This document shows, piece after piece, positions 3,307-9,859 of a stretch of 64,000 nt of DNA. The DNA is from Aequorivita vladivostokensis. Lineage in GTDB: Bacteria; Bacteroidota; Bacteroidia; Flavobacteriales; Flavobacteriaceae. Position 1 is the first letter of the stretch; each line of letters starts with the position of its first letter. Under the pieces are notes generated by a model, which saw only the letters and a program-made list of their open reading frames with translations, did not search any database and was not told the origin of the DNA. Made by a program: the position numbers and the translations under genes. The stretch lies in assembly GCF_000952855.1 (NCBI RefSeq), contig NZ_JSVU01000009.1, forward strand, positions 62,001 through 126,000. The letters are read 5' to 3'.

Positions 3307-4847
3307 TGCGGTTGGTGTACAGGGTTCAAAAGGTCGTTTACCGTTTTTACGGGATTGAAGGTGATGAGCGGTATTTCCACGAAAACCGTGTTCCAGTTTG
3401 CCATCGCGCCGTTCCAAAGTCCGGGCAACTCCAGTGCTTTTATGGGTTTGCCATTATAAGATTTATTCGAAATAAAACCCGCATCGGGGTCAGAAAACTG
3501 AAGCAAATCATACTTTTCGCCTTTATAATTTCGCAGGCCGCAGACCAAATCCACCGGATTGAAATGTGTGGCCTTTTCAACCAATTCCCTTTGTTGCGGA
3601 TTATTGGTATCAATCTGGCTCATTTCCACGATTTGATAGGAAAGGTGTCCGTTCTTGTCTTTTATAAGAAATGGGCCGCCGCCGGGAGCACCCGTATTTT
3701 CAACCACACCGCAAACGCGGATGGGCCGTTCGAGGGCTTTTAAAATTTCCTCTTTATATATAGGAGTGTTTTTTATGAAAAGTTCTCGGGAAATAAAGTC
3801 CGAAGCGTTTTTCAAAACTTCTTCCGCCCCGGCGGACAGGTCAGAAGGATTTGCAGCGTGAAGTTTTTCCACAAAACCGAAGATTTTTTGCTGCAATGAA
3901 AGCAATTTTCCGGCGAGCACTTTTTTCTGAAAAGCGATGGTTTCCACATAATTTTGCGAAACCACGTTGTCAATATTTTTTATGAAAACGATGTCGGCAT
4001 CCACTTCATTCAAATTTTCCAAAAGCGCGCCGTGCCCGGACGGACGAAAAACCAAATCGCCATTTTCATCTAAAAAAGGTTTGTTTTCAAGGGTTGCGGC
4101 AACTGTATCGGTTTCCTTTTTCTGAAAGGAATATGAAATATTGAACTTTACGCCTGTTTTATTTTCAATGGTTTCCTGAATTTCATGGTATCGTTTTTTA
4201 AACTTTTCCTCGTGTTCCGCGGAAACCGTAAAATGTAAATTGGCTATACCGTTCGCGCTTGCATAAAATGCTGCTTCATACAATTGCTCGCCAAAAGCGG
4301 TAACATAATTTTCACCGTATTTGTGAAAAGGAACGAGACCTTTGGGCGTGTTGCTGAAATTCAGCCCGTTTTCTTCCAGCATTTCCTTTACAAAGAAATA
4401 GTAGCGTTTTCCTTTTTCGAAATTTTTAAAATCGGGGAATTTCGCTTCCAATTTATCTTTCACCAAAGGAGAAAAAGCAAATTGTTCGATTGAATCAAAA
4501 AAGATTTTTAAGTTCTTGTTTTCTCCCTTTTGAAGAAACGCATCGATGTCTTCATTTTCAAAATCATAAATCTCCAAAAACTGATGCAAAAACTTAAACA
4601 TTCGCGTAGCAGCGCCCGAAGCTGGCACAAATTTCAGCAAATCAAGTTTGTCTTTTTCAGCTTCAAAAAGCGCTACAAAATGGTTTTGTTCCGTTTCTGA
4701 AAATACCGCAATGCCATTATCCGCTGAAGCTGGTTCAACTACATTTGCGAAGGGGATTCCTTCCATAAAAATTTCGAGTTGTCGCGTTACCTTAGCTTCG
4801 GAAAGCCCATGATTCTTTATTTGTTGTATGTTTTTTTCTGTAAACAT
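3303..4847 (-). CDS. DUF4301 family protein with nucleotidyltransferase-like motifs
   Basis: 514 residues, cytosolic, no signal peptide. I recognise it as the DUF4301 family common in Bacteroidetes; the function is not established. Several segments resemble UDP-sugar pyrophosphorylases: VPASGAATRM at about 74-83 (compare the G-x-G-T-R-M nucleotide loop), PKGLVPFHKYG at 168-178 (compare the conserved Lys-Pro loop), RPSGHGALLENLN at 268-280 and FIKNIDNVV at 288-296 (compare the GHG substrate loop and metal-binding DN). These sit in the order expected for that fold. A Gly-rich stretch (ENTGAPGGGPF) lies further on. It overlaps arfB by four bases and follows the NadR-like kinase gene by about 100 bases containing a repeat. 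A palindromic GC-rich segment (3823-3836) lies inside the coding sequence. The enzyme role is inference. Confidence 0.85.
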   Translation of the reverse strand: MFTEKNIQQIKNHGLSEAKVTRQLEIFMEGIPFANVVEPASADNGIAVFSETEQNHFVALFEAEKDKLDLLKFVPASGAATRMFKFLHQFLEIYDFENEDIDAFLQKGENKNLKIFFDSIEQFAFSPLVKDKLEAKFPDFKNFEKGKRYYFFVKEMLEENGLNFSNTPKGLVPFHKYGENYVTAFGEQLYEAAFYASANGIANLHFTVSAEHEEKFKKRYHEIQETIENKTGVKFNISYSFQKKETDTVAATLENKPFLDENGDLVFRPSGHGALLENLNEVDADIVFIKNIDNVVSQNYVETIAFQKKVLAGKLLSLQQKIFGFVEKLHAANPSDLSAGAEEVLKNASDFISRELFIKNTPIYKEEILKALERPIRVCGVVENTGAPGGGPFLIKDKNGHLSYQIVEMSQIDTNNPQQRELVEKATHFNPVDLVCGLRNYKGEKYDLLQFSDPDAGFISNKSYNGKPIKALELPGLWNGAMANWNTVFVEIPLITFNPVKTVNDLLNPVHQPQ

Positions 4848-5521: not shown

Positions 5522-6114
5522 GCGCGGTATCCGTATATTGAAATAACGACAAAAAGCATAAATTGGAAGGACGTAAAAATCAATCCCTTATAAAAATATA
5601 GGGGTATCGAAATTACATTTCCCACCAGTAAAAAAAGCCAATTTTCTAATTTTTTACGAGCCAATAGCCACATTGCCACAAAAAAGAGCGCGGTAGTTAG
5701 CGTGTCCACATAAGCAGTCCAACTGGTCCATTTCTCGAAAATTTCATAAATAATATAAATAAAAAGCAAAGTAGCCACAAAAATCAAAAGGCTGATTTTC
5801 TTTTCTTTTGGAGTTGTAATGGTTATTGGCGTATAATGTTCGGCATCAACTTTTCGGGTCCAGATGTACCAACCGTAAATACTCATTGAAAAGTAGTACG
5901 CATTTATTATCAAATCGCCCAAAAGTCCGTAATAGGCTAATATATAGACAAAAATGGCGGTGCTCAAAATTCCGGTTGGATAAATAAGAATATTGTCCAT
6001 TTTGGAAAACCAAGCACTGGCCAAGGCCAGTATTACCGCAATGATTTCAAGGATTACGATATGCCTTGGCACCGCTTCGTATTGCTGAAATAGCCAATCA
6101 AAAATGGGGCTCAT
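5476..6114 (-). CDS. pnuC: PnuC family vitamin transporter
   Basis: 212 residues with about seven hydrophobic segments. The MSIYGWYIWTRK segment and the C-terminal SIYGYRAWKRNL repeat the aromatic/Trp signature of PnuC transporters, which move nicotinamide riboside by facilitated diffusion and rely on a cytosolic kinase for trapping. PnuT members of the same family carry thiamin. Its start overlaps the upstream thiamin-binding-type gene by 17 bases and its end overlaps the kinase gene by 46, so the three form one operon. I saw no THI-box riboswitch sequence upstream. The family assignment is firm and the substrate is not. Confidence 0.9.
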   Translation of the reverse strand: MSPIFDWLFQQYEAVPRHIVILEIIAVILALASAWFSKMDNILIYPTGILSTAIFVYILAYYGLLGDLIINAYYFSMSIYGWYIWTRKVDAEHYTPITITTPKEKKISLLIFVATLLFIYIIYEIFEKWTSWTAYVDTLTTALFFVAMWLLARKKLENWLFLLVGNVISIPLYFYKGLIFTSFQFMLFVVISIYGYRAWKRNLNIPETSLLN

Positions 6115-6358
6115 AGTCGCTGCGGTCTGATTTTACTATTTTGATGTAAAGCAAACCTCTTTCCACGGCTTCCAATGCGACTTTCATTTCCTTTTGCAGC
6201 AAATTCATCACCGCATCATAATCGCCGTAAACCTGTGTGCTTAGCGGATTTTCCAATACTGTAAGACCAGAGTTTCGAAGGCTTTTTATAAAATTGATTA
6301 TTGCGGGTTCGTAATCGTCCTGTAACGGAGTTAGTGTGAGTTCTACTGAGATTTTCAT
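6098..6358 (-). CDS. Thiamin-binding-type protein (MTH1187/YkoF-like)
   Basis: 86 residues from the ATG at 6358 (MKISVELTLTPL), the usual family start; an in-frame ATG at 6376 would add MKKNEK. The ferredoxin-like alternation, the early SVELTLTPL strand, the LSTQVYGDYDAVM segment and the length of about 90-100 residues match the MTH1187/YkoF thiamin/HMP-binding family. It is cytosolic, with no signal sequence, and is the first gene of a run through pnuC and the NadR-like kinase. A link between vitamin binding and import is therefore likely. Upstream lies the repeat element at 6456-6567, and no TPP riboswitch is visible. Confidence 0.75.
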   Translation of the reverse strand: MKISVELTLTPLQDDYEPAIINFIKSLRNSGLTVLENPLSTQVYGDYDAVMNLLQKEMKVALEAVERGLLYIKIVKSDRSDYEPHF

Positions 6359-6455
6359 TTTTTCATTTTTTTTCAAAACTACGATTTTAAAAAGTTTTCA
6401 GTCGCAGTCACAGTTTGCAGTTTTTGGAATTTGGTTTTTTAAGATTTGGAATTTA

Positions 6456-6567
6456 TTCAAATGCCGTTCCCATCACAATCTCGTGGCTTCGGCTCCGCTC
6501 AGCCACCGAGACCGGTCATTGAGCGGAGTCGAAATGACTTTTTTCAAACGCCGTTCCCATCACAACC
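6456..6567. repeat. REP/BIME-like two-hairpin element with 25-bp flanking direct duplication
   Basis: Two hairpins lie head to head. Stem GTGGCT (6483-6488) pairs with AGCCAC (6501-6506), and stem GTCATT (6515-6520) with AATGAC (6533-6538). Their 12-base loops are reverse complements at 11 of 12 positions (core CTCCGCTC), while the stems differ but stay perfectly paired. The pair is flanked by a 25-base direct repeat (6456-6480 and 6543-6567, two differences). The repeat is the 3' end of the adjacent enzyme gene, so the insertion duplicated its target. Confidence 0.85.
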
Positions 6568-7232
6568 ATATCCGCTCCAGCTTCGTAAGCGGTATTGTTT
6601 TGTGCTTCGGTTTTTATTCCGCCGCCAACTATTAAAGGGATGTTGATAGCTTTTTTTACTTCGGAAATAATTTCGGGTTTTACGGGAAATTTTGCGCCGC
6701 TACCCGCTTCCAAATAAATAATTTTTGCCCCTATAAATTGGCCTGCCAATGCCGTATGCACAATGTTTTCAATATTTTCCTGCGGAAGGGGTTCAGTATT
6801 CGTCACTTTTGAAACTGCCGAACCATTGCCGCCATCAATCAAAATGTAACCTGTGGAAATAATTTCCAATGAACTATTTTTCAATTTTGAAATGGACTTT
6901 ATCTGTTGTCCCACCAAATACTCCGCGTTCCGCCCAGAAAGCAACGTTAAAAACAAAAGCGCATCGGCAAAGTGCGTAATATGCGACCAGTCGCCGGGAA
7001 ATAGAAAGATTGGCAATTTTGTTGCGACTTTCAACGCTTTTACGGTTGCTTCGGTTTCGCCATTTGCAACGGTGCTTCCACCCACAAAAAGATGGGTGGT
7101 TTGCTTCGGTATTTTTTTCAGAAAAGAATCGGTTTCAGAACTATTGAATTTATCTGGGTCAATCAAAATGGCGAGCTGCCTTTCCTTTTCGGCTATCGAT
7201 TTCAGAAGATTTTTATAAAAAATGTCTTCCAT
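6516..7232 (-). CDS. Geranylgeranylglyceryl phosphate synthase family protein
   Basis: 238 residues, TIM-barrel family. ILIDPDKF near residue 22, FVGGST, the SGRNAEYLVG segment, the YLEAGSG phosphate loop and the LIVGGGIKT loop near the C-terminus are the family's landmark motifs. Archaeal members join glycerol-1-phosphate to prenyl diphosphate; bacterial (PcrB-type) members use related substrates. The Bacteroidetes homologues' physiological role is unclear to me. The C-terminus is altered: the last eight residues (KSHFDSAQ) come from an inserted repeat element. The duplicated target at 6456-6480 preserves the probable original ending VMGTAFE followed by TAA. It lies three bases after the phosphopantetheinyl transferase gene, in one transcript. 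Confidence 0.88.
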   Translation of the reverse strand: MEDIFYKNLLKSIAEKERQLAILIDPDKFNSSETDSFLKKIPKQTTHLFVGGSTVANGETEATVKALKVATKLPIFLFPGDWSHITHFADALLFLTLLSGRNAEYLVGQQIKSISKLKNSSLEIISTGYILIDGGNGSAVSKVTNTEPLPQENIENIVHTALAGQFIGAKIIYLEAGSGAKFPVKPEIISEVKKAINIPLIVGGGIKTEAQNNTAYEAGADMVVMGTAFEKSHFDSAQ

Positions 7233-9388: not shown

Positions 9389-9859
9389 ATGATTTATGAA
9401 GAAGAAAAAATAAAAGTCCCAAGATTCAATGAAGAATCCGGCTTCTACACCACAAAAAAGCGCTCAAAAATGATGGGCAAAATTCGTGGGAAGAATACCA
9501 AGCCGGAACTGCTCTTTAGAAAAGCGCTTTGGAAAAAAGGTATCCGGTATCGCGTGGATAGCAAAATACTGCCAGGAAAACCCGATGTTTCCATCCAAAA
9601 ATACAAACTTGCCATTTTTATTGACGGCGAGTTTTGGCACGGTTACAATTGGCCCGAAAGAAAGGAGACTTTAAAAAGCAACCGCGGTTTTTGGATTCCA
9701 AAAATAGAACGAAATATGCAGCGCGACCGCGAAGTGAACAAACAACTCGAAGAAATGGGCTATACCGTGTTTCGGTTTTGGACCAGCGAAATAAAGAACA
9801 ACCTCAACAAATGCATCAACGATATTTTGGTGTATATAAATACTGGACAAAATGATTAA
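9389..9859 (+). CDS. Vsr-like (very short patch repair) DNA mismatch endonuclease without zinc ligands
   Basis: 156 residues, the same length as E. coli Vsr, and alignable along most of it: KRSKMMGKIRGKNTKPE, LPGKPDVS, AIFIDGEFWHG, FWIPKIERNMQRDRE and a final VFRFWTSEI strand. Candidate catalytic residues Glu40, Asp66, His84 and Asp113 are present. The structural zinc site of E. coli Vsr (Cys66, His71, Cys73, Cys117) is absent, since the equivalent segment reads EFWHGYNW and the last Cys is Ser. Vsr nicks T:G mismatches produced by deamination of 5-methylcytosine and normally accompanies a cytosine methylase, but none is encoded in this window. It overlaps the aminotransferase gene by eight bases and sits between metabolic genes, suggesting acquisition. 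It could instead be a DUF559-type nuclease; I favour Vsr. Confidence 0.82.
   Translation: MIYEEEKIKVPRFNEESGFYTTKKRSKMMGKIRGKNTKPELLFRKALWKKGIRYRVDSKILPGKPDVSIQKYKLAIFIDGEFWHGYNWPERKETLKSNRGFWIPKIERNMQRDREVNKQLEEMGYTVFRFWTSEIKNNLNKCINDILVYINTGQND

Follow-up and report, generated by a model that had tools for sequence, protein, structure and literature searches.

The window analysed here is the whole 64,000-nt stretch of Aequorivita vladivostokensis DNA. The element under study lies in it between two co-directional genes of the minus strand: a gene of the geranylgeranylglyceryl phosphate (GGGP) synthase family (PcrB; 6516..7232; NCBIfam match of 267 bits) and, downstream, a gene of the thiamine-binding protein family (6098..6376). 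It is a doublet of two inverted hairpins. Hairpin 1 (6483..6506) has the stem GTGGCT/AGCCAC and a 12-nt loop, TCGGCTCCGCTC, which is the class C1 loop read on the minus strand; hairpin 2 (6515..6538) has the stem GTCATT/AATGAC and the loop GAGCGGAGTCGA (class C1, GAGCGNAGYCGA); an 8-nt spacer, CGAGACCG (6507..6514), separates them. The stems are perfect and different and the loops near-identical (6483-6538), as described in the original prediction; once one loop is inverted the two differ at a single base. The 64-nt strand with the doublet folds with a z of -4.8, the opposite strand with a z of -3.5. As a single strand the doublet folds best into one long hairpin, since its loops are nearly reverse complements of each other; reading the doublet as two putative hairpins rests on the comparison with other copies. 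No GTAG-like tag of the kind expected of RAYT-associated REPs stands beside the hairpins (sequence 6475-6545), the doublet has neither a CGTC/TGTC tag, an AT-starting stem of 8-9 bp nor a loop of 4-5 nt, and PADLOC gave no match.

The doublet is flanked by a direct repeat whose outer (6452..6478) and inner (6539..6565) copies are alike at 25 of 27 bases; a longer alignment pairs 6449-6478 with 6536-6565, 87 apart, at 27 of 30. On the minus strand the outer copy reads VMGTAFE-TAA, the ending that the GGGP-synthase gene originally had. After the inner copy now comes the element, and the reading frame continues into hairpin 2, so that the protein ends with an element-encoded KSHFDSAQ and the stop falls inside that hairpin. 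Both the proposed duplication of the gene end, about 25 bases long, and the changed C-terminus are therefore confirmed.

We compared this gene end in 23 loci, i.e. 22 same-genus relatives and the window’s own genome. Three relatives (G005, G018 and G017; loci L091, L092 and L093) have an empty site: the gene ends VMGTAFE-stop and is directly followed by the sequence found 3’ of the window’s outer copy. This supports VMGTAFE-stop as the ancestral ending, as had been supposed, and KSHFDSAQ is not common to all relatives. In G012, the nearest relative (97%), and likewise in G020, G003 and G006, the gene end is occupied by palindromic inserts of another kind; at L090, L094, L096 and L100 the inserts are of the CCCCTAACCCCCAAAGGGGG type in three cases and of the CCCTCCCTTCGAAGGGAGGG type in L090. 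Short palindromes seem to have a hot spot at the 3’ end of this gene. G022 (L097) carries a similar doublet, partly degraded, with a similar but more diverged duplication of 23-24 bp. In the GGGP-synthase gene tree, empty-site branches separate the window copy from that of G022; at least two changes are thereby forced, and we reject a simple shared insertion in the two lineages. The gene end was hit more than once, possibly by two insertions at one site, or the insert was lost repeatedly, possibly as one old insertion removed through the direct repeat.

The duplication itself is exceptional. A flanking direct repeat (score of at least 10) occurs in one of 22 isolated doublets, the window copy alone; the same outcome was obtained with the window and six other places of its genome, two of them array ends. 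The G022 copy has its duplication but is not singled out among the 22. The large target duplication first noted is thus real in these two copies but atypical of the element; insertion need not make a duplication of fixed length, and the constant-length duplication expected of a MITE or a simple, classical transposon is absent.

The doublet belongs to a multi-copy repeat, as its description as a REP-like element inserted at a gene end had implied. In the genome of 3.27 Mb the loop pattern TCGRCTNCGCTC is matched exactly 45 times, the reversed pattern not once; 37 of the 45 have a perfect inner 4-bp stem, with 10 different stems, so that the repeat is a dispersed short palindrome like REPs. The nine next-best genome matches of the window’s element (78-90% identical) all lie at 566698-568250 of contig C1 of this genome (G000), and the tenth on contig C4. 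The former segment is a tandem array of doublets which contains, on the minus strand (L060:2860-3171 and 3833-4144), two copies of a GIY-YIG ORF of 103 aa each, 98% identical (the P0001 pair). P0001 matches the Pfam GIY-YIG model with 70.8 bits (cut-off 22.6) and PDB 1zg2 with an E of 4.8e-14. Residues Y6, Y16, G18, R26, H30 and E63 are invariant in 16 aligned GIY-YIG proteins; the two tyrosines, the arginine and the glutamate are presumably catalytic. Both nuclease genes of the array are bracketed by the class C1 repeat on both sides. No C1 copy was found within 1.5 kb of the other GIY-YIG matches of this genome (L082-L088), one of which, L084, is flanked on either side by a copy of CCGCGAAGGCGGGAAT; of the seven genome matches to the pattern CCGCGNAGGCGGGAAT, three surround L084.

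The association extends beyond this genome. Searching 119 genomes of the order with P0001 gave 106 places in 40 genomes, of which 101 were used (four were left out and one is the second fragment of a gene already counted). The C1 loop stands within 600 bp at 20 of these and on both sides at 16, in 12 genomes. The 77 counts correspond to 64 distinct copies against 1.07 expected from each genome’s own density; this expectation ignores the intergenic share and, should nearly all repeats be intergenic, could be several times higher, still well under 64. Copies near a nuclease gene include tandem arrays, so that such counts overstate the independent events. At 77 of 99 GIY-YIG loci a repeat of more than 30 bits is common to the two flanks of the gene, as against 0 of 30 GGGP-synthase loci.

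Three loop classes, counted by loop alone, were followed over 208 distinct GIY-YIG places: C1, C2 (GAGCYTGYCGA) and C3 (GAGGYNCTCGA). At least one lies within 500 bp at 129 places, and the three reversed patterns at 0, 0 and 0. C1 is found at 96 places, at 65 of them on both sides of the gene, with 376 copies in all; the corresponding figures are 24, 14 and 83 for C2 and 18, 9 and 82 for C3. More than one class is nearby at 6 places, and when each place is given its best class the figures are 96, 19 and 14, with 79 places left without class. Among places scoring at least 125 bits, 86 of 89 carry a class. A nuclease gene bracketed on both sides, the layout of REPtrons, is hence seen with C1 in the window’s own genome and at the 65 places just mentioned. 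GGGP-synthase loci counted likewise as a control gave 1 of 30, the window’s own; 11 of the 30 also hold, at the same place each and more than 500 bp from the gene, a C2 loop lacking a notable stem, which indicates that the loop alone can match coding DNA.

A wider scan of one genome per species, over 84,980 species, gave at least 553 relatives, whose best 80 loci were kept and lean towards the C1 branch. Among these best 80 of at least 553, most are from Bacteroidota and many are MAGs, as are most of the outsiders: Calditrichota, Spirochaetaceae, Cloacimonadota, Ignavibacteriales, Kuenenia, Desulfobacterales, a Deltaproteobacterium, a Gammaproteobacterium and Dojkabacteria. In this set 59 of 81 places have, no more than 500 bp away, a hairpin with a stem of at least 4 bp and a GAG-N5-6-YCGA loop; since L120 overlaps L162, two genes of G071 enter this count twice. 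Of the others, 16 of the 22 remaining places have one of two other loops, one of them as a near-variant.

The predicted covariation of the stem with conservation of the loop is borne out. When each distinct place contributed a single, randomly picked C1 hairpin, chosen by its loop only (n=96), the inner four stem pairs were Watson-Crick in 353 of 384 cells; the mean after shuffling was 189 and the maximum of 2000 shuffles 216. For 61 hairpins from the named loci (best 80 of at least 553) the pairs number 221 of 244, against a shuffled mean of 142. Recognition of a folded strand would leave just such a pattern, in which the loop stays constant and the stem varies but remains paired. On a nuclease tree of 120 rows the loop classes need 17 changes, the shuffled mean being 29.4 and none of 200 shuffles as low; the tree is built on few columns, with 54 of its 117 inner forks open, and relatedness alone can make class labels cluster on it. 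The loop class clusters on the tree, but either several switches between classes or some misplacement has to be assumed.

Part of the class-less places carry another repeat. At 32 of the 79, a CGTC/TGTC-tagged hairpin (AT-starting stem of at least 5) lies within 500 bp, on both sides at 18; the elements number 78, against 3 with a scrambled tag. In the controls such hairpins occur at 8 of 98 C1 places, 0 of 30 GGGP-synthase loci and 1 of 30 Y1_Tnp loci, the last with 6 scrambled-tag elements. A few of the 32 places may be chance; by eye at least L084 and L153 look so. At 47 places there is no loop class and no CGTC-tagged hairpin either; the close homologues L126, L211, L213, L272, L313 and L315 are among them. 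TGTC also precedes some C1 hairpins in other GIY-YIG loci, e.g. L216 and L221. On plasmids, 33 records have a homologue; among 16 loci taken from them, several of which are close relatives of each other, 9 have CGTC-tagged hairpins, 8 on both sides (30 elements, 1 with a scrambled tag), and the 7 others belong, as judged by eye, to two different sequence subgroups. The tagged hairpins include CGTC repeats that end in CCA tails, beside plasmid GIY-YIG genes of Rhizobium, Shinella, Neorhizobium and Azospirillum lipoferum; on plasmid AZO_p3 of the latter (L358:686-979) the bracketed gene sits between sufB and sufC.

CGTC-tagged REPs have been described in Bacteroidetes and elsewhere, as HH dimers and including dRS3 of Neisseria and RPE-4/6 of Rickettsia; in that survey (Di Nocera et al. 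2013, PMC3733652) they show no transposase association and are judged to lack a dedicated transposase. A search for the term GIY-YIG listed no occurrence in this paper or in the 2025 RepRanger paper (PMC12306157), and our search of the open-access literature, with preprints and subscription papers outside its scope, found no paper linking the stand-alone GIY-YIG family to REP-type repeats. From the hairpins adjoining their genes, we propose these nucleases as the candidate missing mobilising enzyme of the CGTC REPs.

For the window itself, the reading we favour, and hold to be probable, is that the element is a non-autonomous REP-type doublet whose gene-carrying form is the hairpin-bracketed GIY-YIG nuclease gene, the nuclease spreading the repeats. 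The unit would be a kind of REPtron in which GIY-YIG replaces RAYT, i.e. a small stand-alone nuclease gene bracketed by its own hairpins. The nuclease would recognise the hairpin as a folded strand, extruded or single-stranded, through the conserved loop and with any complementary stem; it would nick at or beside the hairpin, and repair or replication would then copy the hairpin or the doublet to new sites. The nuclease gene with its flanking hairpins would move likewise. Branches of the nuclease are bracketed by different loops (C1, C2, C3) and the more distant nucleases by CGTC/TGTC-tagged REPs. In this lineage one doublet inserted into the GGGP-synthase gene at its 3’ end, and the 23-27 bp of target were probably duplicated by staggered nicks or template switching. 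Several observations count against this reading: the repeated switches of loop class on the tree with its open forks, the 6 places with more than one class, the 47 places with neither kind of hairpin, and the lack of a constant target duplication.

The most serious alternative, which we regard as rather unlikely, makes the nuclease gene a passenger, a homing-type parasite that cuts or lands at hairpins while the repeats spread by replication slippage or a host enzyme. The distribution over genomes bears on it in both directions. Of the 119 genomes, 26 have at least 7 C1 copies, and 25 of these hold a P0001 homologue, the exception being G072 with 17 copies; among the other 93, with fewer than 7 copies, 15 hold one. 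Repeats spreading independently of the nuclease should produce neither this match nor the clustering of loop classes with nuclease branches. Four of the 28 genomes of the genus (G018, G008, G003 and G007, the last only 69% complete) nevertheless keep 7-32 copies of the repeat and gave no P0001 homologue at E <= 1e-5. On the reading we favour, the copies in these genomes and in G072 would have to be remnants or have another partner. Another point in favour of a passenger is that the family uses other palindromes as sites too, since the genes of a third GIY-YIG group are located at duplicated 3’ ends of tRNAs. C1 copies away from the nuclease are more numerous in genomes with a C1-bracketed nuclease (16 vs 24 genomes, Mann-Whitney p = 0.001), a test to which we give little weight, the genomes being related and the copies between neighbouring genes being subtracted twice for G000 and G071; some genomes without a bracketed nuclease are copy-rich (G119 with 53, G041 with 45).

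That the hairpins are mainly RNA elements, terminators or mRNA stabilisers, which flank nuclease genes by chance, seems to us very unlikely. Their perfect stems, and their position here between two co-directional genes, would suit such a role. Against it, the 12-nt loop is conserved across phyla while the stems vary, no Rfam family matches the element at the gathering score, and the genome-wide dispersal, the growth of arrays and the insertion into an empty site point to a mobile repeat. They may still have a secondary role in RNA.

We give still less credit to a REP/BIME element moved by a RAYT transposase, the enzyme first thought to recognise these hairpins. The search for a RAYT/TnpA-REP gene did find one RAYT-like gene, the sole Y1_Tnp gene of the genome (54 bits with NCBIfam REP_Tyr_transpos, below the cut-off of 80), and the inverted-doublet layout of the window’s element resembles that of REPINs. 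However, this gene lies between copies of an unrelated palindrome, ACCTCACAGGTCTT..AAGACCTGTGAGGT (L061:1948-1976 and 2555-2585, contig C7), and there is no C1 loop within 1.5 kb of it: RAYT-type and GIY-YIG-type units coexist in this genome with separate repeats. Any of the three loop classes was found at 2 of 31 Y1_Tnp loci, examined up to 1.5 kb on each side, compared with 129 of 208 GIY-YIG places; the 31 were drawn from 90 matches in 33 of the 119 genomes, some are cut by contig ends, and as a control they are broader than RAYT, covering IS200-type transposases as well. Moreover a Y1_Tnp match is present in 18 of the 26 repeat-rich genomes and absent from 8, one of which has 139 copies. 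On these grounds RAYT is rejected as the mobiliser.

Least credible of all is that the 25-bp duplication alone matters, as a product of local template slippage with incidental hairpins: slippage is plausible for that part, the duplication being exceptional among isolated doublets, but as the source of the hairpin core it is refuted, since the core is missing from the empty-site relatives and is 78-90% identical to the array units of contig C1, and so came from elsewhere.

The GIY-YIG nuclease is thus left as the best candidate mobiliser of the window’s repeat and of other repeats to which no mobiliser is assigned, judging from the arrangement of the genes. Like the GTAG-type REPs, BIMEs and REPINs with RAYT (TnpA-REP), the present repeats are short covarying palindromes, dispersed, arranged in inverted doublets and bracketing a small nuclease gene; they differ in having no GTAG tag and in bracketing a GIY-YIG gene, not an HUH/Y1 enzyme. 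With the CGTC-tagged REPs (PMC3733652) they share the palindromic structure, the dimeric (HH) arrangement, the occurrence in Bacteroidetes and elsewhere and the missing transposase association, and repeats of that type bracket more distant GIY-YIG genes; unlike these, the window’s doublet has no outer tag, stems of 6 and not 8-9 bp and loops of 12 and not 4-5 nt. The nuclease itself is of the stand-alone UPF0213 type (PDB 1zg2, BH0048; 1ywl, EF2693), as P0001 matches the domain and 1zg2.

GIY-YIG homing endonucleases are mobile genes with the same catalytic domain; in contrast, the nucleases described here have about 100 aa, little more than that domain, and are bracketed by multi-copy hairpins. 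More generally, we would put at about even the chance that stand-alone GIY-YIG nucleases are hairpin-guided mobilisers, unrelated to HUH/Y1, which read the loop in folded DNA and spread C1-C3 and CGTC REPs across many phyla, as a second, independent origin of REPs and REPtrons. With a GIY-YIG partner, and with classes clustering on the nuclease tree, the missing enzyme of the CGTC REPs becomes open to direct biochemical test. A widespread family whose annotation goes no further than “GIY-YIG nuclease family protein” or “excinuclease ABC subunit C” would thereby gain a function, and a small nuclease would become available with a hairpin target that could be predicted from the DNA adjoining its gene. 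Odd C-terminal peptides, like HFDSAQ here, would also find an explanation.

Some further observations concern the GIY-YIG genes and their surroundings. In the window’s genome, L066, L070, L076 and L079 are single C1 hairpins with CACT/AGTG stems and may be orphans of a lost nuclease; the L066 hairpin has GACA after it, which reads TGTC on the opposite strand, and is similar to those found beside a different GIY-YIG branch. The third stand-alone GIY-YIG group stands directly after tRNA-like 3’ ends, at L082:1400-2170 and at loci in G063, G025, G041 and G103, the tRNA identity being judged by eye; there the tRNA end with a terminator-like palindrome is repeated on both sides of the gene, sometimes in tandem (356-bp spacing in L082). 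Elsewhere in the window, 9389-9859 of the plus strand holds an ORF of 156 aa which, from its motif, we take to resemble a very-short-patch-repair (Vsr) endonuclease.
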